Shown piece after piece: positions 13,241-60,839 of a DNA stretch of 64,000 nucleotides. The stretch lies in contig CAUYUJ010015026.1 of NCBI GenBank assembly GCA_963575745.1, positions 214,942 through 278,941 of the forward strand, given 5' to 3'. The notes below the pieces were generated by a model, which saw only the letters and a program-made list of their open reading frames with translations, was not told the origin of the DNA and searched no databases. The DNA comes from Prorocentrum cordatum (taxonomy: Eukaryota; Sar; Dinophyceae; Prorocentrales; Prorocentraceae). How positions within the stretch are numbered: the stretch's first letter is position 1; the number at the start of each line of letters is the position of its first letter. A program made the translations under genes and the position numbers.

Positions 13241-13581
<341 letters not shown>

Positions 13582-13709
13582 GCCATGCATTCCCAGCGGG
13601 TGCAAGTCACGTTGTGGCGCTGCGAGCACTCTGGGGGAGTGCTGGCGGAGCCAAAATCCTCTTTCACGATTCAGTGCGATCAAGTCTGCCGCCCCAGTCC
13701 TTGCGCGCT

Positions 13710-14738
13710 ATGGGCAGCCATGGGCGCGGAGGCGCAGAGGGAGCAGCGGTTGTGCTCCGCGGGCCCAAGTCACCGCTGTGGCTGTGCTCCTGCGGCTGCG
13801 CATCCAACTGGGCCAGCAGGCTCAGGTGCCGTGAGTGCGACCGGCGTTGCTCCACCACGATCGAGGACGCCGCCAGGAAGGCTCACAAGGAGGCGCTCAA
13901 GGGCGGGCCCAAGCCAGGCAGCCACCCGCAGCCCCGCGGTGCATGGGCGCGGCAGAAGCTGGCCCCTTGGGAGCATGACAAGCTCCAGAGGCAGGACAGC
14001 GAGCTGGCTGCCCTGCGGCAGCAAGTCGAGGCACTCAAGGCCGACAGCGCCAAGGCCAAGCTCACTGCACTCAGCGACCTCAGGGAGGAGCTGCAGCTTG
14101 GAGGAGGAGAGCAGGCCACGAGCTGCGTCAAGGCCGTCGAGGCCAAGTAATCAGAGCCGCCTAAGCCCAAGAGCCTCCCAGCCTTGGAGGGACAGCGCAG
14201 GAAGCTCGAGGGCCAGCTCCAGAAGGCCCTCTCCAAGGTGGCGGAGCTCGAGGACCAGCGCGGCAAGCTCGACCAGAGGATCAGCGAGGCCAAGGATTCG
14301 GCCGCCGAGCTCAAGTGCAAGCTGCAGGCGGCGGACGCCGAGATCGAGTCCCGCCATGCCGCTGGCGTCCTCGGCGACGGGCTCAGGGGCCTGGCCAAGG
14401 TGCTGGAGCAGTTCAAGGCTACGGCTGTGGAGAACCAGGCAGTGTTGCAGGGCCTCATCCAGCTGCAGGACGTCATCAAGAAGGAGCAGGAGACCCTGGA
14501 GGCAGCGGACGACGCTGCACCTGGTGATGGCGATGGTGATGACGCTGCTGTCCCAGGCAGCGGGGAACCACACGAGGGTGTCCCTGGCAGCGCTGGGTCA
14601 GGGGGGGTGTCTGTCCCCGTCCCTGACGAGCTTGTCGACAGTCTCATGGAGGACGCCCCAGAAGGCGAGAGCGTCGAGCAGCGACGCAAGCGCTTCAGCG
14701 ACATCATCGAGGCCCAGCTCAGGCGGCCTCGGGTTTGA
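13710..14738 (+). pseudogene. LINE ORF1: zinc finger plus coiled coil, one in-frame stop
   Basis: First ATG in the open frame after the DinoSL relict. Near residues 25-45 is WLCSCGCASNWASRLRCREC, a RanBP2-like pattern (W-x-C-x-C-G..N....R..C-x2-C). This is followed by Lys/Glu/Gln/Leu-rich heptad-like helices (KLQRQDSELAALRQQVEALK and, later, KLEGQLQKALSKVAELEDQR), consistent with trimerising or RNA-binding ORF1 proteins of LINEs. TAA at 14,148-14,150 interrupts, and the same frame then stays open to TGA at 14,736-14,738. The C-terminal third is acidic and Gly-rich. ORF2 starts 5 nt downstream. Expected role: RNP formation with element RNA. Function inferred from position and domain layout. 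Confidence 0.75.
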
Positions 14739-14742
14739 TAGC

Positions 14743-17700
14743 ATGTGGCTATACACTGTCAACGCGAACACCGAGAAGGGCGATCGCGACTTCCTCGACT
14801 GGCTTGACAGCCAGCACAGCCTCGTGGAGGCTGGGCCGAAGAGGCTGCCAGTCGCAGACATCACCTTCGTGCAGGAGACGCGTGCGCGTGCTTGTGGCAG
14901 GGAGGCAGTCCAGCGTTGGCATCGGAAGCGCGGGCTCGACTTCGACCTTGCCGCAGGACTCAGCACGGGGGACGGGCCTCAGGCAGTCTCAGGCGGGGTA
15001 GGCATCGGAGTGCGGCAGCGGTTCGCGGCAGCCACGCTCGACGCCGCTTTCAAGCAGCCCCACCGCGTGCTGCGGCGGGTTGTCAACATTGGCGACGGGC
15101 TCGCCATCGATCTCCCGTCCATCTGCCTCCGCGACGGGGAGGGCATGAGCGAGGCCAACGCAGACATTATCTGGGAGGTCGCGTCGCAGCTCAGGGTGGC
15201 GGTGCGGCCGTGGATCCTGGCGGGCGACTTCAACATGGACCCCCTCAAGGTCGCGGCGTGGGCGGCGACGGCTGGAGGTCTCGCGCTACATACAGGTACG
15301 GCGACCTGCAGGGCGGGGTCGCTTCACGAGCTCGACTACGCAGTCATCTCCGACGAGCTCCAGCAGTTCGCGCTCAGCCACGGGCCCGCGATCGAGGCCC
15401 CCGTCGGGCCACACAGCCCCGTCCTGTTGGAGGCACGAGGGCTGCGTGCAGACGCCACGGTGCAGCAACTTCATCGGGCAGCGCGGCTGCCGTTCGATCG
15501 GGCCATCGGCTGTCTGCCCCGCGCCCCGCTGCCTGCCTGGACTTGGGAGGGGGGCACGCCCACCCCCCCCCCAGGCCGCGAGATGCCATGCAGGAGCGGC
15601 TACGGCACGCTGAGGGTTACCTTCTCCCACTCTACGACCTACACGGGGACGAGGCTCAGAAGTTCACTGGCAGGGGCGACGGAGTGCGCTTCGTCAACGC
15701 GCCGCTCGCGGACGCCAGCCGCCGCCACCGGGCTCAGCTCAGCCCGCAGGAGACCCACGCCTGGGGCGGCCTGGTCAGCCTGCCGCAGCGCGCAGACCTG
15801 CTGGTGGCGCGGGGGAAGGACCCACAGGGCCTGGCCAGCCTGCGTGCACGCCTGGCAGCGCTGCGCCTGGGCGACTACGACGGCACCATGGCCCCTGTGC
15901 CCAGGGATGAGCTCGGAGCTGCGGCGACCTCCAGCGACCCGGCTTCGAGGAGGAGGCCCATCGAGCATGCTAGGGCCCAGCAGCAGGCCTGCCAGCGCAG
16001 CGACGCAGCTGCCGCCAGGAGGCAGTGGCAGGACTGGGCCAAAGGCTCGACCACAGGCGGGGGGAAGCTCGCCCACCGCTTCTCCAAGCCTGAGCCGCTG
16101 GCCAAGGCGACCCTCGTCACGGAGGACGAGGCCGAGGGGGAGGCCCTACCAGTCAACGGCGACGAGGCAGCGCGGCATTGCCTCAAGGAGTGGCTTCCGC
16201 TCTGGCTAGACCCTCGGCGCAGAGGAGGCCTCGAGGAAGCGGCCAGCTGGGAGGCGCCAGAGCCGCTGCCGAGGCTCGGGGTGGACAGCCTCAGGCACCT
16301 GCTCAAGCGGCACGGGAGGTGGGCAGGCCTGGGCTGGAACCAGCTCCACCCGAGGCAGCTGCTCCTCCTCGACGAGCCCTTCCTCGACAGGCTCCTCGAC
16401 GTGCTGGCCAGCTGGGAGGACGGTCCCGAGGCCTACTTGGACTGGCTCGCTGCCATCGTCTTCCGCGCCAAGGCGGACGGCGGCAGGAGGCCCATCGCTT
16501 TCACCTGCCTCCAGCTTCGCCTCTGGTCGGCCCTGCGAGGGCCCATCGTCAGGAATTGGGAGGCTCAGCGCCACGAAGTTTGGTACATCGGCGGGGAGCT
16601 GAACACGTGCGAGAGGGCAGGTTGGGCGCATCAGACCCTCACGGCCCTGGCCTACGAGAAAGGCCTCAGCACGGGCACGGTCCTAAGGGGACCTCCGGAA
16701 GTTCTACGAGAATATCAGCCACAAGGAGCTCCTGGTGGAGGCGCAGGACACGGGCTTTCCTGTTAAGCTCCTCAGGGCATGCTGTGTGTCGTATTCTGGC
16801 TACAGAGTCATCACGGTCGACGGGGCATGCAGCTCGCCCTTTCGGGCAACTGGCACGGTGCTGGCAGGCTGCTCCTGCGCGACTGGGATAGCCAAGCTGC
16901 TCCTCTTCCGTTCTTTCAAGAAGGTGGCGGCCTTCTACCCCAGCGTGCGACTGGGCAGCGTTGTCGACGACTTCACGCTCCAGATTGTGGGCACCACGGG
17001 CATGGTCAAGGCAGTTCTGGGCCCCGCCACACGCATGCTGTTGAGCTGATTCGATGAGAAGCGGGTGCCCGTCCACTTCGGGAAGCTCTGCTACCTCACC
17101 CCCGACGCAGAGGTGGCGAAGCAGCTGGGGTCGGAGTGGCCCGCCGAGGACGGCAGGGCGCTGCGCGGCAGGCTGCTAGGCAACGACGTGCACGACGGGC
17201 GCTGGGGGCGCACCGTCATCGGGGCACAGCGGGTCGAGGATGCTCTTGCAAGGTCTCGGAGGCTGCAGGTGCTGAGGTCAGCTGGAGCCAAGGTGGCCAC
17301 GGTGCAGAGGGGAGGCCCCACGGCAGCCGCCACCTGGGGCTCGGCCACGACTGGCCTCGCCCCCTCGGTGCTGCACGGGCTTCGTGTAGCCGCAGCGCGT
17401 GGAGAAGGGCCTCTAGCGCCAGGTTATTCGGTCGGCCTGCGGCTGAGGTGCTTCCCCAAAGGCATCGAGAGAGACCCAGCGGTGGTGAACGCTGGGCAGG
17501 TGGTGCTGCAGTTCGGCATGACGCTCTGGCTGGGCTACCCCACTCCGTTCGCCTTCAACACGCTGCTGGAGAAGGCCAAGCAGCGGTTCTCGACGGCGAG
17601 GCGGCCCTGGGCAACCTGCAGAGACCCCGTGGCAGCCTTTTTCCTCACCATCACCAGGCTTGGCTGGACCATCGAGGGCGGCAGGCACGTCACCACCGAC

Positions 17701-50256: not shown

Positions 50257-50470
50257 GTGACGGAAAGAGCGAGGTACGAGCGATGTACGTTGAGTTAGGG
50301 AGGGGTCCAGGGGAGGGGCGAGGAGCGCGTTGATGGTTGGAATGGCCGCCCTGGCGCAGTTTTCCTTCCATGTGTTTCGAATGAAACGGCCCCCAGGCGG
50401 CTCCCATGGCCCGTTTCCTCGTATTTTTCCAGAGTGCCTTACAACGAAGCTTTTTGCATTCGTTGTCGAG
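50257..50470 (+). repeat. Dispersed element DE-A, copy 2, with terminal hairpin
   Basis: GTGACGGAAAGAGCGAGGTA, GGGGTCCAGGGGAGGGGCGAG and CGAATGAAACGGCCCCCAGG lead to a hairpin (ACAACGAA, 10-nt loop, TTCGTTGT; 50,441-50,466), followed by GAGTGGGGGGTCG. The same hairpin in inverted orientation is at 60,791-60,824. Confidence 0.75.
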
Positions 50471-50511
50471 TGGGGGGTCGTTCTTGGGAGGTGGGGGGTG
50501 GGAAGCCGCCA

Positions 50512-51897
50512 CGAAAGGAATCCCTTTTGCATTCCATCGCAAAAAGAATTCCTTTGTATTCCGTTACAAAAGAATTCCTTTTGTATTCCGCCACAAAGGG
50601 AATCCTTCTGTATTCCGTCACAAGAAGAATTCTTTTGTATTCCGCCACAAAAGGAATTCTTTTGTATTCCGCCACACAGGGAATCTTTCTGTATTCCGTT
50701 GCAAAAGGAATTCCTTTGTATTCGCTACAAAAGGAATTCCTTTGTATTCCGCTACAAAAGAAATCCCTTTGTATTCCGCCACAAAAGGAATTCCGTTATA
50801 TTCCTCTACAAAGGGAATCTCTTTGTATTCCGCTACAAAAGGAATCCCCTTGTATTCTGCTACAAAGGAAATTCTATTGAATTTGTATCACTGCCTGAAA
50901 ACCTGTGTTTTCACAGCTTTTCAGCTATTTTCAATGAAAAACATTGTTTTTTCATTGCCTGGCACAGCTATTCAGCTATTTTTAATAGAAAATATTGTTT
51001 TTCATTGCCAGGCTCAGCTATCTTAGTTTTTTTAATGATTTTCCAACTATGGCGTATTGATTTTAATAAAAAGCTGTGAAAACACAGGTTTGTCTTTGAT
51101 TTTCGAATGAAAAATCAAAGGAAACCCTGTGTTTTCACAACTTTTTTGCTAGTTTCAATGAGAAACGTTGCAAAAAGCTGTGAAAAAAAACATGGTTTTC
51201 TTTGCTTTTTCATTCGAAAATCAAAGAAAGCCATATGTGTTCACAGCGTTTCAGCTATTTTCAATGAAAACATTGTTTTTTCATTGCCTGACACAGCTAT
51301 TCAGCTATTTTTAATAGAAAATATTGTTTTTTCATTGCCAGGCTCAGCTATCTTAGCTTTTTTAATGATTTTCCAACTATGGCGTATGTATTTCAATAAA
51401 AAGCTGTGAAAACACAGGGTTTTCTTTGATTTTCCATTGGAAAATCAATGAAAACCATGTGTTTTCACAGCTTTTTATTAAAACCAATACGCCATAGTTG
51501 GAAAATCATTAAAAAAAGCTAAGATAGCTGAGCCTGGCCATGAAAAAACAATATTTTTTATTAAAAATAGCTGAAGAGCTGTGCCAGGCAATGAAAAAAC
51601 AATGTTTTTCATTGAAAATAGCTAAAAAGCTGCGAAAACACAAGGTTTCCAGGCAGTGATACAAATCAAATAGGATTTCCTTTGTAGCAGAATACAAAGG
51701 AATTCCTTTTGTGGCGGAATACAAAGGAATTCCTTTTGCGGCGGAATACAAAGGAATTCCTTTTGTGGCGGAATACAAAGGAATTCCTTTTGTAGCGGAA
51801 TACAAAGGAATTCCTTTTGTAGCGGAATACAAAGGAATTCCTTTTGTAGCGGAATACAAAAGAATTCCTTTTGTAGCGGAATACAAAGAGATTCCTT
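50512..51897. mobile_element. AT-rich foldback element with 27-bp arrays as arms
   Basis: The left arm (50,512-50,880) has about 13 copies of a 26-28 bp unit like GGAATTCCTTTGTATTCCGC followed by TACAAAA. The right arm (51,670-51,897) has 8-9 copies of its reverse complement. Inside, CAGCTATTTTCAATGAAAA / CTATGGCGTAT sequences occur as a direct pair (about 50,917 and 51,240), and again inverted (51,465-51,660). The fold centre is near GATTTTCCATTGGAAAATC (51,430-51,448). No transposase. Long inverted arms made of tandem repeats define foldback elements. The 9-residue repeat GIPLYSATK in the ORFs is a by-product of the 27-bp unit. Confidence 0.75.
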
Positions 51898-51945
51898 TCT
51901 CTCTCTCTCTCTTTCTCGCTCTCTCTCTCTCTCTCGCTACTACTG

Positions 51946-52000
<55 letters not shown>

Positions 52001-52009
52001 CAACACTAG

Positions 52010-52078
<69 letters not shown>

Positions 52079-52081
52079 CAT

Positions 52082-52114
<33 letters not shown>

Positions 52115-52137
52115 CATTACTACTACTACTACTACAA
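51898..52137 (+). repeat. (CT)n then (CTA)n
   Basis: CTCTCTCT with CTCGCT interruptions to about 51,937, followed by (TAC)n with CCA and CAC interruptions. Confidence 0.95.
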
Positions 52138-52347
52138 CTTTTACTGGTTCTAAGAGCACCACAGATCCTGTGAGCACCACAGAGCCCACGAGCACTGGTG
52201 CACTATATATTAACCCCGCAATACCTGCATCCACCACAGGTCCTATGAGCACCGCAGAGACGGCGGAGGAGAGCGCAAAGCGCGGAAATCTCACTGATCA
52301 AGGGAAATCTCGTGCTATTTTCCTCGCGTCTGGTCTGCAGAGAAGCT

Positions 52348-52448
52348 GGTAGCTAGCAGCTACCCTAGGAATGCTGGCGAGCAGTCAGCTTAGGGTGAGG
52401 ACGAGGAGGAGAGGGAGGAGAGACGACACTTGATGGCGAGCAGCCATC
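52348..52448. other. Hairpin cluster at the 3' end of the cassette
   Basis: GGTAGC-TAGCA-GCTACC (52,348-52,364), GCTGGC-GAGCA-GTCAGC (52,373-52,389, one G-T pair), GATGGC-GAGCA-GCCATC (52,432-52,448). All lie just past the stop codon of the 483-aa ORF. The second and third keep the GGCGAGCAG core while the outer stem changes on both sides (CT/AG to AT/AT). Confidence 0.8.
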
Positions 52449-52455
52449 TTGAGAC

Positions 52456-53907
52456 TCATAGCCGGTCCCCGTCTGGAGTGAGGAGAACAACCAAAGTGCT
52501 TTGAGGTACTTCAGAGACAGCCGTAATATTGTCCAGCATTGAACTTACCACGCATTGCACCTCATCAAGAAGAATTCCATTCGCCGCCCATTCACCCTTC
52601 CACCTCTGAGCGTACCACAGCTCTTCAACAAGACTTGAATCTGTGAGCGCTGCACGTTTCATATAGCAACGTCTGCTCTTGTAAGTTGGAATATCTATGC
52701 GGCCGAAAAGACCCTTCGAACCCAGAATAGTACAAGATTTGAACTCATTCCTGAATAGCTTAGAAGGCGTCCCACCAATCTGAGCAGTTGACCGGCCATC
52801 AACAGTGAAAGCCCGCATAACCGAATTTATGTTATCCACGCGGCCAATATGGGCATCTGCATATTTGTATGTAGGCCACTTATGCATAGATGTCTCACTA
52901 ACGATGCAATGCAAGTTGATATCTTTTGCAGTATTGGCGTTCAACTTGTTCTTCGCTGCGGCGGCCAGCAATCCACCATCCAATGCGTGTATCAAATAAG
53001 AAATAGCATTTGACGTATGCAAAACCATATTGTCAATTGGAAGCCGAACAGATAATTGTTTCCATCCCTTCTCCTTGCTTGTGCGCACTACAGTATCATT
53101 GAAATTGCCATCCAATGCGTCGTCTCCAGCAATTATCCATATATCTTTAATGTCATAAGTGTCCGAAGCGAAACCCTTTGTCGGCTGAGGAGGTGGAATT
53201 ATCGATTTTGGGTAAACCCTGGCACTAATGTCATAAGTGTCCGAAGCGAAACCCTTTGTCGGCTGAGGAGGTGGAATTATCGATTTTGGGTAAACCCTGA
53301 CACTGAGATCATCGTCTTCCTCGTCCACCCACGGCCTCTTCTTGCTAGTTAACGGTAAAGATTTAGGCTTCGCTGTCCTCGTGGCTTCTGCATCGGTTGA
53401 TATGTCCAAGGGCTTGCCATTGGAGCTGGTCTTGAGGTCGCCGAAACATTGTCCCTCGCACTCGTCCTCTGTAGAAGAAGATGATGACGAGCTGTCCTTA
53501 ATAGTTGCTCTCTGTCCGCCAACTTCATGCGTTGTCTGATAACCACTATAAAAATTCCCAGCGTATTGACACCCATAATAATTGCCAGCATATGGATAAT
53601 GCATAGGAACGTACACAACTGGTTGAGGATGCGCTGAAGAAGAACCACCGTTTGAATATTGATTATTTGTCTTGGCAAAGGGTCCAGATTCGAGAGCGAG
53701 TGCAGCCTCTGGGAACAAACTTTTCCAAATCCCAATTACTCCACCTCCTTTCTTTTTGGCTTCGTGCATTTTTTTCGAAACCTTTAAATTGTGCGTTGCC
53801 TTCAAGTCTTTCCATAACTTGTCGCCGAAATCACCCCAGCTTCGGCACCTGGAAATGACTTCGGGCTGGGGGCCCGCACTGCGGATTATACGCTGCAGTT
53901 CGTCCAT
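52456..53907 (-). CDS. Hypothetical 483-aa protein of the cassette
   Basis: First ATG of the open frame is at 53,907 (MDELQRIIRSAG); the frame extends 24 codons further upstream without an ATG. I recognise no domain. Visible features: a basic, Trp-containing N-terminus (SWGDFGDKLWKDLKATHNLK), a Tyr/Gly/Asn-rich stretch near residues 100-125 (HYPYAGNYYGCQYAGNFYSG), a Ser-rich acidic patch, then a tandem 26-residue duplication (SVRVYPKSIIPPPQPTKGF...). The C-terminal half (from WIIAGDDALDG) looks globular and is rich in aliphatic residues. The ORF is intact. It is last in the cassette, with hairpin clusters on both sides. Could be a structural or DNA-processing partner of the HUH-like protein; no evidence decides. 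Confidence 0.7.
   Translation of the reverse strand: MDELQRIIRSAGPQPEVISRCRSWGDFGDKLWKDLKATHNLKVSKKMHEAKKKGGGVIGIWKSLFPEAALALESGPFAKTNNQYSNGGSSSAHPQPVVYVPMHYPYAGNYYGCQYAGNFYSGYQTTHEVGGQRATIKDSSSSSSSTEDECEGQCFGDLKTSSNGKPLDISTDAEATRTAKPKSLPLTSKKRPWVDEEDDDLSVRVYPKSIIPPPQPTKGFASDTYDISARVYPKSIIPPPQPTKGFASDTYDIKDIWIIAGDDALDGNFNDTVVRTSKEKGWKQLSVRLPIDNMVLHTSNAISYLIHALDGGLLAAAAKNKLNANTAKDINLHCIVSETSMHKWPTYKYADAHIGRVDNINSVMRAFTVDGRSTAQIGGTPSKLFRNEFKSCTILGSKGLFGRIDIPTYKSRRCYMKRAALTDSSLVEELWYAQRWKGEWAANGILLDEVQCVVSSMLDNITAVSEVPQSTLVVLLTPDGDRL
53148..53303 (-). repeat. In-frame 78-bp tandem duplication
   Basis: Two nearly identical 78-bp copies (starting 53,148 and 53,226), 26 codons each, differing only near their junction. 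Low divergence points to a recent event that kept the frame. Confidence 0.92.
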
Positions 53908-53940
53908 TCGCCGGAATACGGATGTGTCGAACAACGAAAA

Positions 53941-53963
53941 CCTTGAGCCGCAGGTTCTACGGA
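53941..53963 (-). other. Degenerate DinoSL-like sequence upstream of the 483-aa ORF
   Basis: Read on the minus strand: T-CCGTAG-AACCTGC-GGCTCAAG. The outer parts match DinoSL (CCGTAG and GGCTCAAG) and the middle seven bases match at only one position. It lies about 35 nt before the ATG on the correct strand. A match this weak is expected about once by chance in a window of this size. Confidence 0.25.
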
Positions 53964-54164
53964 TCAGTTGGAGTCGCAACCGGAATACAAGAGCAGAGGC
54001 TGATCCACGACCCAGGCACGGCGCAGGAAGGAGAGCAGGCGATATATTGATAATGATGATAACCCTGATATTGATAAATATGACATTGGAAATGGTGATA
54101 ATCTGTGTAGCGATGATAATGTGTATGAATGATGGTATTGATTAGAATGAATGATTTTTTTGCG

Positions 54165-54289
54165 GCGCAACTTGAACAGCGAAACTGTTGTAGGCTGCGC
54201 CCCTGTCATTATGAAGACGATCAGTCTTCTTTCGCGCGCGACGCCTGAAGTGAAAGCGAACAGCTTCCTTGTGAGAACAAGCAGTCCTC
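54165..54289. other. Hairpin cluster between the 134-aa and 483-aa ORFs
   Basis: GAAGAC-GATCA-GTCTTC (54,213-54,229, perfect), GAAAGC-GAACA-GCTTCC (54,252-54,268, five of six pairs), GAGAAC-AAGCA-GTCCTC (54,273-54,289, five of six pairs). A different stem, GCGCA...TGCGC around AACAG-CGAAA-CTGTT (54,165-54,200), lies beside them. 54,040-54,150 is AT-rich with GATAAT repeats. Confidence 0.75.
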
Positions 54290-54349
54290 TTAAAGAAAGG
54301 GCCTAATTGTTGATGTGTTTCAACTCGTTTCCAGTGAACGAGAGAGGCT

Positions 54350-54754
54350 TCATCGCTTGCGTTTCGGCGTGCGCTTCTGCTTCGGCGTACGCTTCTGCTT
54401 CGGCGTGCGCTTCTTCACTTTTCTGAGTGACATGCATGTGCCTGGGTAGTCCTTCCTGGAATTCCCCGCTGTGAACTTGTTGCGCCATAAACAGTAATGG
54501 TACAAGAAGCATCGGTAGCGAGCGCGCTTCATCTTTGACAGCCAAGCCAATTTGTCCAAACGCGACCGCAACTGTTCCGCCGCCTGAGAGTTCAATGTCT
54601 TTTTATGAACAATGGCTGGTGCTTTGCACTTGTGCTTCTTGCTGTGATACCCATCCAGATAACATTTATCGCATAGCGATCCTTCGAAATGCTTAGCGAC
54701 TACGCAACCACAATCGCACGCGTACTTGCCAACAATCATCTTGGTTTTCTTCAT
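54350..54754 (-). CDS. 134-aa Cys/His-rich basic protein
   Basis: Starts with ATG at 54,754, only 12 nt after the TAA of the CxC-like ORF and in the same frame, so stop readthrough would give one fused protein. Residues 13-43 carry CDCGCVV, CDKC and HSKKHKC (C13, C15, C17, C28, C31, H37, H41, C43), a likely zinc-binding cluster. The C-terminus is very basic and ends in three TPKQKR/TPKRKR repeats (about 117-134), coded by an 18-bp repeat, suggesting nuclear localisation or nucleic-acid binding. No family assigned. Position suggests it is a detached C-terminal zinc domain of the preceding protein or its partner. Intact. Confidence 0.7.
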   Translation of the reverse strand: MKKTKMIVGKYACDCGCVVAKHFEGSLCDKCYLDGYHSKKHKCKAPAIVHKKTLNSQAAEQLRSRLDKLAWLSKMKRARYRCFLYHYCLWRNKFTAGNSRKDYPGTCMSLRKVKKRTPKQKRTPKQKRTPKRKR

Positions 54755-54766
54755 ATCAACTAAACA

Positions 54767-55708
54767 TTATTTTTTGTATGCTGTGTTCTCACCGTTCAAC
54801 ATCTCACCCAAATGAAGAATTTCGTTGCCACCTCCCTTGCGGTTCTTCATGTTCACGGTTGCGTAGAGCCCGCCAGTTTGAGTGCGCGCAATCTTGATGT
54901 TTTCAATCTGCGTCACTGCTCTGCACCTCGACTTTGATTTCGCCTTTGCTTTAGCAGTGGCATGCATCTTCTTGATGGCTCTTTCCAATCTCTTGGAGTT
55001 GGGGCGTCCAGGAAGATTTTTCTTTGCATACTTCTTCTCTGTCTCCGCCAGTTTCCGATTGCATTGGAAATTGCCGTCGGTGACAACGTCAAGTTTACCG
55101 CGCGGTTGCTCGTATAACGGATCGTCCCGGGCAGCATTGAAAATCACGTGCAGGCCTTTGTTGTCCACGTCGAAAACTTCGTCGCCATCTGGCACTGGGT
55201 CGTTGACATCAAAGTCAAAGACGCCCTCTTGCAAGCGCAAGAAACAAAATATAGCTTGCCAAATGGCACCGCTTAGTTGGTAATTATTCTTTACAGATTG
55301 AACTGCTTTACTGGAATTCCCGATGCTGATGTCAGGATACGACAACGATATCACTGCCGCCTCGGCACCCGCCGATACACCTGCGCGACACATTCGATGC
55401 CACATCTGCACAAGGTAATTATATGTGAAGCCAAGTTGTGCGTGCACTAGAAGAATTGGGTTGTTATCAGTTTTCGTCATAATGTTTTCCTTTGAACCAG
55501 AACGCGCAATGTAGTTTAGTTTGTAACGTAACCCACAAGATCTGTTCGTGCAAAGCTTCGTTGAGTGGCGCACCGTGCTCCACTCAGCTCCGTTCCAAAC
55601 AGTAGCATCATGCGTCCAGCAGTGCCCTTGCTTCTTCTCTAAATCAGAGCCGCATTCTTTGCACGAATCTATATCCGGCCAAATTATCGGAATAATTTCT
55701 TCTACCAT
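54767..55708 (-). CDS. 313-aa protein resembling the CxC5 cysteine cluster of KDZ transposases
   Basis: First ATG at 55,708 (MVEEIIPIIWPDID). The frame opens 21 codons earlier without ATG, and that part holds a hairpin, so I exclude it. CKEC (16-19), then STKLCTNRSCGLRYKLNYI (C53, C58), then LLVHAQLGFTYNYLVQMWHR follow the layout of the KDZ-associated CxC5 cluster (C-x2-C, C-x(2-4)-C..Y..NY, then H/F-rich helix). VVTDGNFQC (about 208-216) resembles the DG start of the CxC6-like segment. A Lys-rich tract follows. KDZ elements are eukaryotic DNA transposons; the transposase core is not visible here. The match is by pattern from memory, so treat it as tentative. Ends in TAA (54,769-54,767), in frame with the next ORF. 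Confidence 0.6.
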   Translation of the reverse strand: MVEEIIPIIWPDIDSCKECGSDLEKKQGHCWTHDATVWNGAEWSTVRHSTKLCTNRSCGLRYKLNYIARSGSKENIMTKTDNNPILLVHAQLGFTYNYLVQMWHRMCRAGVSAGAEAAVISLSYPDISIGNSSKAVQSVKNNYQLSGAIWQAIFCFLRLQEGVFDFDVNDPVPDGDEVFDVDNKGLHVIFNAARDDPLYEQPRGKLDVVTDGNFQCNRKLAETEKKYAKKNLPGRPNSKRLERAIKKMHATAKAKAKSKSRCRAVTQIENIKIARTQTGGLYATVNMKNRKGGGNEILHLGEMLNGENTAYKK

Positions 55709-55729
55709 TGCAGAGCTGACTTCTCTGGG

Positions 55730-56012
55730 GTCGGCTAGAAGCCGACTTGTTTCCGGTTGGCAAACAGCCAAGATGTTTTGAGCCGATGGCTACTGCCGCG
55801 ACAACAATCAATATTGCCATCGCAACGATATGAAAGCGCACGCATGATTAAGTGCATCTGCAAGGCATTAGTTCTTTTTTCTCAAACGCAACATTAAATC
55901 GAGTTTCTCCTACATCGCTAGCAGCGACAGTATGCAAGCACGCGCGTGGGCTTCGCCGCTAGCAGCGGCGTTATACAAACGATCGGCATAAGTTTCGCTG
56001 CTAGAAGCAGCG
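55730..56012. other. Hairpin cluster between the HUH-like and CxC-like ORFs, candidate origin or processing site
   Basis: GTCGGC-TAGAA-GCCGAC (55,730-55,746), a short TCGC-TAGCA-GCGA (55,915-55,927), CGCCGC-TAGCA-GCGGCG (55,954-55,970), CGCTGC-TAGAA-GCAGCG (55,996-56,012). The last three are spaced 41 and 42 bp. The two long stems differ by a compensatory change (C-G to T-A at the fourth pair). GTATGCAAGC / TTATACAAACGATCGGCATAAG / TTGTATATGCAATCG links suggest a tandem unit. Confidence 0.8.
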
Positions 56013-56140
56013 TTTGTATATGCAATCGACCAGCAGTTGAAATCTCAACTACCAAAATGTACGAAGTTAAAAAGCGAAAGGTGCAAATTGACAGCAAGCA
56101 GCTGCCTTCAGATTCAGTCGCAGAGTTGCGCGAACCTCTA

Positions 56141-58336
56141 TCAGTACATACCCTCACGTTGGTGACCAAACACGTCCTCCTCATCCAAATCGTTGTTGCT
56201 TGGGCGAGATCCCGCTGACATTCCCGCGTTGACGCGAGACTCATGAACAGCGCGGGCCACTTCCTCTCTGTTAGTTTCCTCCCACGCTCTCTCCATGTTC
56301 TCATCTTCGCCGACTAGATCTGCCTCGGCCGTGGTCCTCTCTTTTTTGGGTGCGCCAGGAATCTCTGGCTCCTCTGCCCTGCTGCGCTTCCTCTCAGGCG
56401 TCTCAGGCGTATCAGCAGTCAGATCAAACTCGCTTCCGTGGTGAGGCTCTGCTTTCATTGATAGAATGCGCTGCCTTTCTTGCATGTCCTCGATGGTACC
56501 ACAAAACGCAATCGGGGCTGCATTCGCGCTGCGTTCCAAAGAGCTAAACCCAGCAGCCGTCAATAGGGGATGGTCGTATGACTGAGGCGCCATTGATGGA
56601 TCATTGAACAATCCTCTGGCGCCCCGTGCAGATGAAGGCCTGATCGTTCTGGAACGGGGAATCGGCTCACCTCTCATAGCCCTGCTCAAATATTCCAACG
56701 ACCACTTCACATCCTCATGGTAGTTCGGCGGGACCTCCTTTAACTGTCCATTTTTCCACTTCTGCATAAGGATTTTCACTTCTGGTTTGAATATATCCAT
56801 TTCTTCACCAACCGGCCAATGGATGATTGGCACATCCACCATCTCTTTGGTAGCATTGCGGTGGATGATCCCTTCGCGAGTAACGACGATGGTGTGGAAA
56901 CGACGCCTGAATGCAACCCAGTCCTCTTCGTCGGCCTCTTTATCGATTGACGGCATAATAAGTTTTTGCCAATCCTTGTCGGTGATCTTATCTTTGCGCA
57001 AAAACCTCTTGGACAATTTGCTGTCGTATTGCTGACTCACAGCTTGGCGGCACGAATACATGTCGAACCCTGAACCTCCCCACCTGGCCCATAGAAGAGC
57101 ATCTACCTCTGCGGGATACAAAAAAGCTTTCACCAGATCGGCGCCAAGCTGATAGAACTTCCCGTCATCAAAGATACACGGCTTGAAAACATTGTTTCGC
57201 TCGCCTCTGAACATATCAATAAATTTGGCGGTCGCTATGGCAGGTTGAACATCGTCTCTCTTTTCTTCTTCTATCCAATGATTGGACACCATGAAGGCGT
57301 GCGTCCGTGAACACAAACTTTTACCGCATTCCGAAATTCCGATCCATAGAATTCCATGTTCCTTATGCGTTGCAATCTTATCTTTCAGGACCAAGTCCAT
57401 GAACCACGGCTTCAAATCTTTATAGGTTGTGAAATTGAAATCAATCTTTCTGGCAGTAGACGCGCCTCTTGCCAAACAGTCTAAGAACGATCTGCACTTT
57501 GCTTCTGGCCAATCCAAGATTGGGCTTCCTGGCTTTTTGGTCCACACGTCAACCCACTCCGCGAATTGCCCTTCGTTGTTTGAGGAGGGTCTCATCTTTC
57601 GCATGAACTCGTAACCAGCTGAGATCTTGTTGAAATCAACTTGCTTCTCTTCAACATCACCCGACCATTTGCCGTAGCGAACTTGAAAACCACCAAGCCC
57701 TTCAAATAGTTTCTGGAATATTTTCTTAGTCACCACTGGGTTGTGAGGCCACCACGAATGGCAGTGCAGAGAGCCGCAAGCCAGTTCTTCTTGCACCTTC
57801 ACAAGCTTTTGCTGTTCGTCGAACATAATGTGTTTGATGACGTGCCACTTTTCGCCGGCGGGCACTATTGCCAGTTGCATTGTGTACGCCACTTGCCAGG
57901 AACCCGACGGACCGAATGGATGTGGTAAGTTTTTGTAGTTCCCTTTGTCCATCTCTTTTGCAATCAACCCTTTCACATGATCATTGTAATTGCCGTTCCA
58001 CTCATTGCTCCAATCAATATTACCGTGGAAATCATTTGCCAAATTCTCCACAATCTTTTTGGCATCGTCTTCAAACTTCCCGCTCCATTCGAAAATGCAA
58101 TCAACAGCCCACTTGTTTTTCTGACTAACGTTCGTGTGTGGGAAGGCGTAGATAGGTAAGTCTGCAGCTTCGGTCAACGCAGGAGCATCAAACTTGATGA
58201 TTGGTTTCTCCGTAACAAAATGCAGCTTGTTATTGTCAAGTTGCTTTTCTGTGTCTGCGAGAATTTGATTTGTCTTCCCTGGCATTTCTAACGCAACGCC
58301 TAATGTTTTCATGCCGCCGCATATAACGTTAGCCAT
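56141..58336 (-). CDS. 731-aa Rep-like protein with HUH-like and SF3-helicase-like motifs
   Basis: ATG at 58,336 (an alternative is Met9, 58,312, which would leave the overlapping hairpin outside the CDS). GSLHCHSWW (H191-C-H193) fits an HUH metal-binding motif, followed after about 50 residues by SAGYEFMRKM (Y242), a plausible nicking Tyr. GISECGKS (333-340) fits Walker A GxxxxGKS, and KPCIFDDGK (386-393) a Walker B as in superfamily 3 helicases. The C-terminal 180 residues are polar and acidic with a basic patch (PERKRSRAEE). This domain order is that of rolling-circle replication initiators of CRESS-type DNA replicons; the protein is about twice their usual length. It would nick a hairpin and unwind DNA in the nucleus. 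Assignment rests on motifs alone. Intact and intronless. Confidence 0.55.
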   Translation of the reverse strand: MANVICGGMKTLGVALEMPGKTNQILADTEKQLDNNKLHFVTEKPIIKFDAPALTEAADLPIYAFPHTNVSQKNKWAVDCIFEWSGKFEDDAKKIVENLANDFHGNIDWSNEWNGNYNDHVKGLIAKEMDKGNYKNLPHPFGPSGSWQVAYTMQLAIVPAGEKWHVIKHIMFDEQQKLVKVQEELACGSLHCHSWWPHNPVVTKKIFQKLFEGLGGFQVRYGKWSGDVEEKQVDFNKISAGYEFMRKMRPSSNNEGQFAEWVDVWTKKPGSPILDWPEAKCRSFLDCLARGASTARKIDFNFTTYKDLKPWFMDLVLKDKIATHKEHGILWIGISECGKSLCSRTHAFMVSNHWIEEEKRDDVQPAIATAKFIDMFRGERNNVFKPCIFDDGKFYQLGADLVKAFLYPAEVDALLWARWGGSGFDMYSCRQAVSQQYDSKLSKRFLRKDKITDKDWQKLIMPSIDKEADEEDWVAFRRRFHTIVVTREGIIHRNATKEMVDVPIIHWPVGEEMDIFKPEVKILMQKWKNGQLKEVPPNYHEDVKWSLEYLSRAMRGEPIPRSRTIRPSSARGARGLFNDPSMAPQSYDHPLLTAAGFSSLERSANAAPIAFCGTIEDMQERQRILSMKAEPHHGSEFDLTADTPETPERKRSRAEEPEIPGAPKKERTTAEADLVGEDENMERAWEETNREEVARAVHESRVNAGMSAGSRPSNNDLDEEDVFGHQREGMY

Positions 58337-58367
58337 CAGCTAACCTTCTTGCCAACAAGCAGTCAGC
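58328..58367. other. Hairpins at the 5' end of the cassette
   Basis: GTTAGC-CATCA-GCTAAC (58,328-58,344) is perfect, and its loop contains the complement of the Rep-like start codon. GCCAAC-AAGCA-GTCAGC (58,351-58,367) keeps four of six pairs and the loop type. Confidence 0.7.
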
Positions 58368-58419
58368 GCAGTTTGTTTGCTGGGTGTGCTTGAGCCTCTG
58401 AGGCGAGGAGAAGGAGAGG

Positions 58420-58745
58420 AGGAGGCAAATGATAATAATGATAATACATAACGAAAATGGACAATGATACAATAAATCAAGATTATGGTAACAATACATA
58501 TCATACTCTATCACGATAGATGAATTGAAGCGCAGTTACCTTCAGAATGCCCTTGGCGCATTCTCTGGAATATTTTGTCGCACCGGCAATATTCATCTCC
58601 CTGCGGCGGCCGAAGACGCAGAAGGCCTTCGACATTCGGAATCAGAGAGCAGGGCGGCCAAGAATGCAAATGATGATTATGATAATGATACATATACTGC
58701 AATATGTATAAGTATGTATTGAAGCGCAATTATCTTCAGAGGACG
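58420..58745 (+). repeat. Diverged ~190-bp duplication, AT-rich
   Basis: GCAAATGAT(A/G)AT..TGATAATG/ATACATA and TTGAAGCGCA(G/A)TTA(C/T)CTTCAGA each occur twice (about 58,426/58,665 and 58,521/58,711). Immediately outside the cassette; function unknown. Confidence 0.7.
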
Positions 58746-58754
58746 CTTGGTGCA

Positions 58755-59035
58755 CTCTCTGTCGCACCGGCGGTCTCGCCCCCAGCGCCGGCGGTCTCTC
58801 TGTCGCACCGGCGGTCTCTCTCGCACGTCTCTGTCGCACCAGCGGTCTCTCTGTCGCACCGGCGGTCTCTCTCGCACGTCTCTGTCGCACCAGCGGTCTC
58901 TCTGTCGCGAGGGAAGGCGAGGAGGGGAGAGAATTTTTCCAGTGTCGCCGCAGCGAGCGAGCGTCTCTGCAGCGAGCGAGCGTCTCTGCAGCGAGCGAGC
59001 GAGCGTCGCTGCAGCGAGCGAGCAGTCGCTCCCGG
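58755..59035 (+). repeat. GTCGCACCGGCGGTCTCTCT tandem repeat and (GCGA)n
   Basis: GTCGCACC(G/A)GCGGTCTCTCT repeats, some with a CGCACGTCTCT spacer (about 54-bp higher unit), then GCAGCGAGCGAGCGTCTCT repeats from about 58,948. Confidence 0.9.
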
Positions 59036-59037
59036 TG

Positions 59038-59047
59038 TCTTCGTCGT

Positions 59048-59112
<65 letters not shown>

Positions 59113-59137
59113 TCGCCGCCGCCGCCGTCGTCGTCGT

Positions 59138-59181
<44 letters not shown>

Positions 59182-59415
59182 TCGCCGCCCTCGTCGTTGT
59201 CGTCGTCGCCGCCGCCGCCGTAGTCGTCGTCTTCGCCGCCGTCTTCGCCGCCGTCGTCGGCCTGCTCCTGGCGCCCTCGGGGGCTGCCGTCCACACTCCC
59301 GCCTCGGAGTGTGGACGACCGCAGCGCCGTCCCCCGAGGGCCCAGGCTTGTCGTCGCCGTAGCGTCGTCTTCGCCGCCGCCGCCGTTGCGTCGTCGTCGT
59401 CGCCGCCGTCTTCGC

Positions 59416-59467
<52 letters not shown>

Positions 59468-59482
59468 TTCGTCGTCCGCCGC

Positions 59483-59540
<58 letters not shown>

Positions 59541-59543
59541 GCT

Positions 59544-59620
<77 letters not shown>

Positions 59621-59640
59621 CGGCGTCGGCGCCGCCCTGT
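59038..59640 (+). repeat. (TCG)n / (CCG)n microsatellite
   Basis: TCG and CCG triplets on both sides of a hairpin at 59,273-59,341. All homopolymeric ORFs here are artefacts. Confidence 0.95.
59273..59341. other. 69-nt bulged hairpin inside the (TCG)n array
   Basis: Outer stem GCCCTCGGGGG with CCCCCGAGGGC (11 bp), middle CTGC with GCAG, inner stem CGTCCACACTCC with GGAGTGTGGACG (12 bp), and a 6-nt loop CGCCTC. Bulges of 6 and 3 nt lie on the right arm only. Confidence 0.9.
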
Positions 59641-59889
59641 CCCCGTCCCTCAGTAGGGCGAGGAGCGGCCCTTGCCCCAGTAGCTCTTGCCCCCCCAGTT
59701 GTTCTGCAGCTCGTCCTTTTCCGGCGGGGGGGGCGGCGGCGGCAGCGACGACAACGACGACGACGAATATCCTCGCCGTGCGCGTAGTTGCAGCGCTCGC
59801 CCTGCTTGCAGAAGCCTTCGGCCCAGTAGCGGCAGAGGTCGGTCTTCCAGCGCGAGTCCTTGTGAGCCGTTATTTTTTTCTAATTCGCG
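59641..59889. other. Unassigned sequence
   Basis: Includes a G9 run (59,725-59,733) and short GAC triplets; nothing recognised. Confidence 0.4.
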
Positions 59890-59981
59890 CTACTCTTGCG
59901 TCTGGCCAGACCAATTCTAGCCTCGAGGTGGCGCGCGGGCCACCCCGAGGCTAGAATTGGTTTGGCCAGACGCAAGAGTAG
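59890..59981. other. 43-bp near-perfect hairpin
   Basis: Left arm 59,890-59,932 and right arm 59,939-59,981 pair at 41 of 43 positions, plus one G-T. The single A-C mismatch is at 59,926/59,945. The loop is six bases (GCGCGG). Sequence starts CTACTCTTGCGTCTGGCC. It could be a miniature element reduced to its terminal inverted repeats, or a hairpin replication end. Confidence 0.92.
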
Positions 59982-60073
59982 TGCGTTGGGAGTTTAGGGT
60001 TTCTGTCTTTGTAGTGCTGCTGCTTCTCGTGCTGCTCCTGTTCGTCCTGCGCCTGCTTGGCGCGCTGCTGCTC

Positions 60074-60408
<335 letters not shown>

Positions 60409-60469
60409 ACCTTCCAGGCAGCTCCCTCCACCCAAGCGGCCCGGAAGCTCGCCGGCGCCAAGCCAGGCT

Positions 60470-60780
60470 GACGAGGAGACGCCATGCCACCGACTAGAGA
60501 GAAGGGTTATGGATTCAGCTATGGATGGCTTGTGCCAGAGCTGATACGGATGTCTTCGTCGGGGTCGTCGTCTTCGTCGTCGCCGCCGAGCCCGCCGCCG
60601 AGTCCTCTCTCCTCCTCCCTTCCCTTTCTCCTCCCTCCTCTCCTCCTCCTCCCTCCTCCTCTCTTCCCTTGCTCTTCCCTCCTCCTGCCTCGCTCCCTCT
60701 CCCTTCCCTTCCTCCTCTCCTCCCTTTCTTTCCTCCCTCTTTCCTTTTCTGTTTCCTTTTTTCCATCTTAAGAGGATGGA
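60470..60780 (+). other. Pyrimidine tract
   Basis: 60,599-60,770 is almost all C and T (CTCCTCCCTTCC-like) with few purines, possibly triplex-forming. No gene. Confidence 0.7.
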
Positions 60781-60790
60781 CGACCCCCCA

Positions 60791-60824
60791 CTCGACAACG
60801 AATCTTTTCAGATTCGTTGTCGAG
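60791..60824. other. 14-bp perfect hairpin, end of a dispersed element
   Basis: CTCGACAACGAATC, loop TTTTCA, GATTCGTTGTCGAG. Preceded by CGACCCCCCA, as in the inverted copy at 50,441-50,480. Confidence 0.9.
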
Positions 60825-60839
60825 CACCCTCTATTTTTC

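Follow-up and report, generated by a model that had tools for sequence, protein, structure and literature searches.

Small paired hairpins in the noncoding gaps of a KDZ-like dinoflagellate transposon: a possible RNA motif of the element's own mRNAs

What is the role of a family of small hairpins that recurs around the genes of one locus in the dinoflagellate Prorocentrum cordatum? The locus lies in a 64,000-nt stretch of contig CAUYUJ010015026.1 (assembly GCA_963575745.1). This stretch is here called the window, and all hairpin coordinates are positions in it. An earlier note, made from the DNA letters alone, had listed 12 hairpins of 17 nt in the gaps of one gene cassette. All 12 were found at the coordinates and with the pairing given there: the stems have 6/6 Watson-Crick pairs in seven cases, 5/6 in three and 4/6 in two. 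Two further hairpins, at 55756 and 56090 (5/6 pairs each), lie inside the cassette gaps. The 'one cassette' of the note is only the middle of a larger element (50430-60831). This element is a multicopy DNA transposon with terminal inverted repeats and young copies, and its gene strand is the minus strand. We lean slightly towards reading the hairpins as an RNA motif that acts in cis within the untranslated regions (UTRs) of the mRNAs of this KDZ-like transposon.

The hairpins are in clear excess over chance. The 6,150-bp cassette contains 12 that fit the consensus, whereas 500 dinucleotide shuffles average 0.064 and never exceed 2; one more is present in the rest of the window on the same strand, and the opposite strand has one over the entire window. 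In a stem-blind count, sites were selected by the loop motif CT[GT]NTNG only, and called fully paired when all five outer pairs were possible, with G-U allowed. By this measure, 12/29 sense sites and 0/23 antisense sites of the cassette are fully paired, the hairpins having one common orientation, as opposed to 1/281 sites in the window outside the element.

The same pattern is present in diverged copies of the element. In six copies, with an ORF1 (open reading frame 1) identity to that of the window of 100, 81, 79, 62, 55 and 50%, 55/109 noncoding and 0/60 coding loop-motif sites are fully paired. This bears out the placement of the hairpins in noncoding gaps, and an equal density inside the ORFs is not seen. 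When only distinct noncoding sites of the six copies are counted, 38/88 are fully paired, whereas 2,000 arm shuffles average 3.7 and reach 10 at most. The 38 sites represent 31 different stems, in agreement with the claim of the earlier note that structure rather than stem sequence is conserved. Ten further loci, picked by the ORF4 protein from its 136 genome matches and including several close relatives of one another, all carry hairpins in their gaps, with 39/100 sense and 0/64 antisense loop-motif sites fully paired. The window copy and the further loci share ancestry, and the tests are not fully independent.

A covariance model built from other loci also recovers the hairpins of the window. 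The model comprises 28 hairpins from six other loci, none identical to any hairpin in the window. They were taken from 35 distinct fully paired hairpins outside family F1, to which the window copy belongs, with seven near-duplicates or hairpins of later loci omitted; pair counts of this alignment are circular, because its rows had been selected by pairing. Among 40 matches in the window, the top 11 are hairpins of the element, and the 12 of the earlier note are all within the top 14. The remaining two of the 14 are the hairpin at 56090 and a consensus-like hairpin on the opposite strand (60048-60064, plus strand; 16.9 bits, E 0.093) in the upstream part of the element. At E<=0.1 the model has 40 matches in the ten further loci, each of them on the gene strand. 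Rfam 15 gave 22 matches over 50430-60831 up to E 1, all below the gathering threshold, and none of them on the hairpins.

In the reading of the earlier note the hairpins themselves are sound, but the telling strand is the gene (minus) strand, which is favoured by the wobble pairs. When G-U pairs are allowed on this strand, 11/12 stems are fully paired. Two stems had been described as decayed; they do have 4/6 Watson-Crick pairs, but on the minus strand those at 55913 and 58351 combine four Watson-Crick pairs with two G-U pairs. Only the stem at 52373 retains a mismatch (A-C), and its counterpart in copy L016 is fully paired. The gene-strand consensus is N4-R-C-T(G/T)NTN-G-Y-N4. In the 55 fully paired noncoding sites of the six copies (identical sequences from different copies included), position 5 is a purine and position 13 a pyrimidine in 53/55 each, position 8 is G in 50/55, position 9 is C in 42/55, and position 11 can be any base. 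The commonest base directly flanking these 55 hairpins is A. Deviations from Watson-Crick pairing on the gene strand are G-T in 21 and A-C in 7 cases.

The hairpins are located next to the starts and stops of genes. The ORF1 start codon lies within a hairpin loop in families F1, F2 and F3 and in L030, and 3 nt after the hairpin in L029. The first suitable ATG of ORF2 follows the hairpin by 21 nt in F1, 0 nt in F2 and 10 nt in F3, and the ATG of ORF5, an extra gene of F2, is 5 nt past a hairpin. Clusters of hairpins come after ORF1, ORF2, ORF4 and ORF5. Conservation was compared between hairpins and their flanks: the window copy and copy L020 differ at 10/119 hairpin positions versus 58/202 flank positions (p=9e-6). 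The contrast comes from the ORF1-ORF2 gap (for L020, 5/68 in hairpins versus 50/162 in flanks). In the gap between ORF2 and ORF4, the hairpin at 54213 is identical in 12 aligned rows, except for one loop base in L047; the L022 piece lacks one end.

The dinoflagellate spliced leader is given as DCCGTAGCCATTTTGGCTCAAG in a passage of PMC12014239. Its end, GGCTCAA, occurs three times in sense and not once in antisense orientation in the 10.4-kb element, one site before each gene, and before ORF2 and ORF4 the similarity to the leader extends beyond this 7-mer, which is often altered in other families. The GGCTCAA sites probably serve as acceptors in trans-splicing. The mature 5' UTRs of ORF1 and ORF2 would then include the hairpins that precede these genes, because they are downstream of the leader-like sites. 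Apart from the element, the window has a match to 20/21 spliced-leader bases at 13561-13581 (plus strand), 3 nt upstream of the start codon of an 874-aa ORF (13585-16209) that is likely to be a retrogene.

A mechanism in keeping with these positions can be outlined. The genes of the element would be transcribed from the minus strand and trans-spliced at the leader-like acceptors just upstream. In the mature mRNAs of ORF1, ORF2 and the ORF5 of F2, the 5' UTR would have one or two hairpins that coincide with the start codon or are close to it, and in the mRNAs of all four genes the 3' UTR would have two to four. A single factor that binds RNA, encoded by the element or by its host, may read the T(G/T)NTN loop together with the 6-bp stem while being indifferent to most stem bases, and may in this way control translation, stability or processing of the element mRNAs jointly. 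We infer RNA as the working form, the binding of a protein and the consequences of this binding.

Several observations weigh against this explanation. In the case of ORF4, the stretch from the leader-like site to the ATG is free of hairpins. The leader-like sites are weak when scored singly (p 0.12, 0.009 and 0.05 versus random window DNA), and in other copies the p values range from 0.009 to 0.67. The conservation contrast is small in the ORF2-ORF4 gap and reversed in L047, with differences at 6/51 hairpin versus 3/40 flank positions. Covariation in homologous cassettes, which the earlier note had put forward as a check, is weak and not significant inside single orthologous gaps, where the score is reached in 27/500 and 81/500 shuffles. 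In RNA folding with 70 nt on either side, the hairpin is favoured in 7 of the 14 cases (mean pair probability >=0.7), intermediate in 3 and near absent in 4 (<=0.13). The antisense strand folds the hairpin at >=0.6 in 6/14 cases, and therefore folding energies alone do not pick the strand.

Another reading is a role of the hairpins in DNA, which we consider unlikely. Hairpins of the sense strand, or cruciforms, would be bound by the ATPase-like protein or the transposase of the element in excision, replication or repair. All genes are on one strand, so that the direction of the genes is not separable from that of the element, and for this reason the RNA motif is not proven. RNA is nevertheless preferred, because the hairpins are located beside starts and stops and not in coding DNA, because the wobble pairs belong to the gene strand, and because of the leader-like sites.

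It is rather improbable that the hairpins are signals for RNA 3' ends or cleavage, with each cluster marking a place where a polycistronic transcript is cut or polyadenylated. The clusters after ORF1, ORF2, ORF4 and ORF5 are as such signals would require, and a passage of PMC10666404 describes the initial transcripts of dinoflagellates as presumably polycistronic. The suggestion of 3'-end signals in the earlier note thus has a basis in the hairpins after the genes, but it does not account for those before ORF1 and ORF2, one of which includes the start codon; a cut at these places would make the mRNA useless.

A further possibility is suggested by the mosaic structure of the element. The coding DNA of ORF2 is 87.6% identical between F1 and F3, beginning at the start and ending near the stop, whereas no alignment is possible between F1 and F2. 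In contrast, the gaps that flank ORF2 in F1 are 76-84% identical to F2, and their similarity to F3 is limited to 100 bp or absent. When window 54350-55708 is compared with L019 and L024, the ORF2 coding region looks exchanged and the flanking gaps kept. The ORF2 coding sequence thus seems to have been exchanged between families, while the backbone kept the gaps with their hairpins. This suggests a role of the hairpins for the element as a whole, and not for any one gene. The mosaic could also be taken to mean that folded hairpins delimit swapped coding sequences, as in cassette exchange at integron attC sites. This is very improbable, since the recipient backbone retains its hairpins, recombination of the ordinary kind or gene conversion would be enough, there is a single case, and the required partner, a tyrosine recombinase, is not among the Pfam matches of ORF1, ORF2, ORF4 and ORF5 at E<=1. 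Hardly any weight can be given to neutral, self-multiplying mini-hairpins, for which the double-hairpin elements of fungal mitochondria are the comparison: one stem (GTCAAC..GTTGAC) does occur nine times in the F3 copy L024, but positions are kept between families, stems vary while pairing persists, and the hairpins are conserved above their flanks in the ORF1-ORF2 gap.

The RNA motif can be extended to a more specific proposal, which is tentative. The transposon may run its own post-transcriptional regulon, in which an element-encoded protein would read the UTR hairpins of all mRNAs of the element, among them an operator at the start codon of the P-loop gene (ORF1), so that all genes would be switched together and coding sequences could be swapped while the hairpins stay. 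The host group is thought to control its genes largely post-transcriptionally, and RNA structures that act as operators are well known in phages and in a few cellular mRNAs. If the hairpins do act in RNA, a eukaryotic DNA transposon would have a repeated set of them, with exchanged stems, around its different genes, and the many natural stem variants would allow structure and function to be tested readily and the binding protein to be sought. No published description of such hairpins in a dinoflagellate DNA transposon was found in the literature searched, at the level of listings.

The motif appears to go with the element defined by ORF1, ORF2 and ORF4, and not with ORF5, which belongs to a large family (129 genome matches). 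In a small control sample of three of these 129, ORF5 relatives outside the clade (L050-L052), canonical hairpins are missing, with zero fully paired loop-motif sites on both strands. The covariance model gave an antisense match with a 10-nt loop in L051 (14.7 bits, E 0.026) and a weak match in L052 (E 0.63).

Judged from its sequence, the element may be described as a KDZ-like transposon family of several genes, one of them for a P-loop partner protein. The 731-aa product of ORF1 retains a P-loop (GxxxxGK) and a downstream DD as invariant features in seven other aligned sequences. Neither Pfam nor, by sequence, PDB yielded a match to it at E<=1, and no relatives were confirmed in IMG/VR; the protein database contains at least seven relatives (best 7,999 candidates scored). 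The earlier note had called this protein HUH-like, on the strength of an HCH motif that is kept in 0/7 of the other sequences. A HUH/Rep nuclease was rejected: histidines are invariant only at alignment columns 324 and 481, without an HxH, and two of the seven sequences keep the second His of HCH. ORF2 resembles a CxC5/KDZ transposase. CxC5 (PF18718) is detected in 4/20 members of the ORF2 alignment (best E 1.8e-6) and KDZ (PF18758) in 1/20 (E 0.0079); the ORF2 piece of the window has CxC5 at E 0.014, short of the cut-off. The stop that splits ORF2 in the window is missing from 9/9 other F1 copies examined. ORF2 has 18 relatives in the protein database, and none were confirmed in IMG/VR and GTDB contigs. 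For ORF4, a structure model of low confidence (predicted local distance difference test score, pLDDT, 53.2) gave 0 Foldseek matches at E<=0.001. The best match in PHROGs has E 0.04.

Copies of the element were fetched by protein matches to the assembly (4.13 Gb, 21,875 contigs), in which the ORF1 protein has ten matches at 99-100% over its full length. The terminal inverted repeats of the window element read CGACCCCCCACTCGACAACGAA at one end and the reverse complement at the other; a 22-bp inverted core, common to both ends, is located within a self-complementary stretch. Five of the ten F1 copies (window, L010, L013, L015 and L017) have a clear 8-bp target site duplication. As for the other five, L009 has only 4 bp in common, L011 abuts another copy, L012 is in a TA repeat, the 3' end of L014 is not in the piece fetched, and L016 has the start flank of L017 and a different end flank. 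The 3' end of L016 is abutted by sequence that resembles the terminal hairpin of the element, as if a related element stood there. On contig C5559 (L011, L031), two F1 ends are in tandem, with the end of one copy abutting the start of the next. Near the distal end, window 51060-51600 contains long inverted repeats with sub-threshold, microRNA-like Rfam matches, and tandem GGAATACAAAGGAATTCCTTT-like repeats are present on both sides of them.

Table 1. The transposon, its genes, hairpins (stem-loop-stem) and leader-like sites, in window positions
Feature	Position	Strand	Remark
Whole transposon, 10,402 bp	50430..60831	genes -	F1 copy homology ends at both positions
Target site duplication TATTTTTC, 8 bp, left	50422..50429		sequence
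Target site duplication TATTTTTC, 8 bp, right	60832..60839		sequence
Gene-side inverted terminus, can fold into hairpin	60770..60831	-	end comparison
Distal inverted terminus with hairpin	50430..50485	+	end comparison
ORF1, 731 aa, P-loop protein	56141..58336	-	67 genome matches
ORF2, CxC5/KDZ transposase-like	54350..55708	-	stop-split: 54767-55708 and 54350-54754
ORF4, 483 aa from first ATG	52456..53907	-	136 genome matches
GGCTCAA after polypyrimidine stretch and AG, before ORF1	58390..58396	-	
GGCTCAA in spliced-leader-like GTAGCCATcGGCTCAA stretch, before ORF2	55778..55784	-	
GGCTCAA in spliced-leader-like CCGTAGn7GGCTCAAG stretch, before ORF4	53943..53949	-	
Hairpin GCTGAC-TGCTT-GTTGGC	58351..58367	-	5' of ORF1
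Hairpin GTTAGC-TGATG-GCTAAC	58328..58344	-	ORF1 ATG inside loop
Additional hairpin GGCAGC-TGCTT-GCTGTC	56090..56106	-	3' of ORF1
Hairpin CGCTGC-TTCTA-GCAGCG	55996..56012	-	3' of ORF1
Hairpin CGCCGC-TGCTA-GCGGCG	55954..55970	-	3' of ORF1
Hairpin TGTCGC-TGCTA-GCGATG (2 G-U)	55913..55929	-	3' of ORF1
Additional hairpin CTTGGC-TGTTT-GCCAAC (5/6)	55756..55772	-	5' of ORF2; covariance-model rank only 17th
Hairpin GTCGGC-TTCTA-GCCGAC	55730..55746	-	21 nt before ORF2 ATG
Hairpin GAGGAC-TGCTT-GTTCTC	54273..54289	-	3' of ORF2
Hairpin GGAAGC-TGTTC-GCTTTC	54252..54268	-	3' of ORF2
Hairpin GAAGAC-TGATC-GTCTTC	54213..54229	-	between ORF2 and ORF4
Hairpin GATGGC-TGCTC-GCCATC	52432..52448	-	7 nt past ORF4 stop
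Hairpin GCTGAC-TGCTC-GCCAGC (one A-C)	52373..52389	-	between the 52432 and 52348 hairpins
Hairpin GGTAGC-TGCTA-GCTACC	52348..52364	-	3' of ORF4

Among known transposons, the element is most readily compared with Zisupton/KDZ, with which it has in common the 8-bp target duplications, the terminal inverted repeats and a transposase-like ORF2 that contains CxC5. It differs in the weakly detected KDZ core, in having three to four genes including one for a P-loop protein, and in the UTR hairpins; the word 'hairpin' has zero occurrences, by word count, in the main text of PMC12730594. The parallel to bacterial REP/RAYT systems drawn by the earlier note extends to dispersed hairpins adjoining the genes of an element. 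It has no nuclease behind it here, since HxH is not conserved in the 731-aa protein; at E<=1, none of the four window ORFs has a Y1 transposase match in Pfam, and the hairpins have variable stems and are located between the genes of one transposon clade.

Other hairpins are similar in position or shape. Giant viruses have hairpin signals at transcript ends, which likewise come after genes, whereas the present ones are short, C-G-closed pentaloops that also occur 5' of genes and at a start codon. The 3' stem-loop of histone mRNAs, the target of the stem-loop-binding protein (SLBP), has a 6-bp stem and a 4-nt UYUN loop. It resembles the hairpins in the 6-bp stem, the U-containing loop, the A-rich flanks and the UTR location, and differs from their 5-nt T(G/T)NTN loop, variable stem and several copies, some of them 5' of genes. 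Identity with it was rejected on the loop length and on the lack of Rfam matches at the hairpins up to E 1. The coat-protein operator of phage MS2 is a small hairpin at a start codon, in which the structure and a few loop bases matter. The hairpin at the start codon of ORF1 is similar in all these respects, although in the dinoflagellate element it is one of many copies, both before and after genes, in a eukaryotic DNA transposon.

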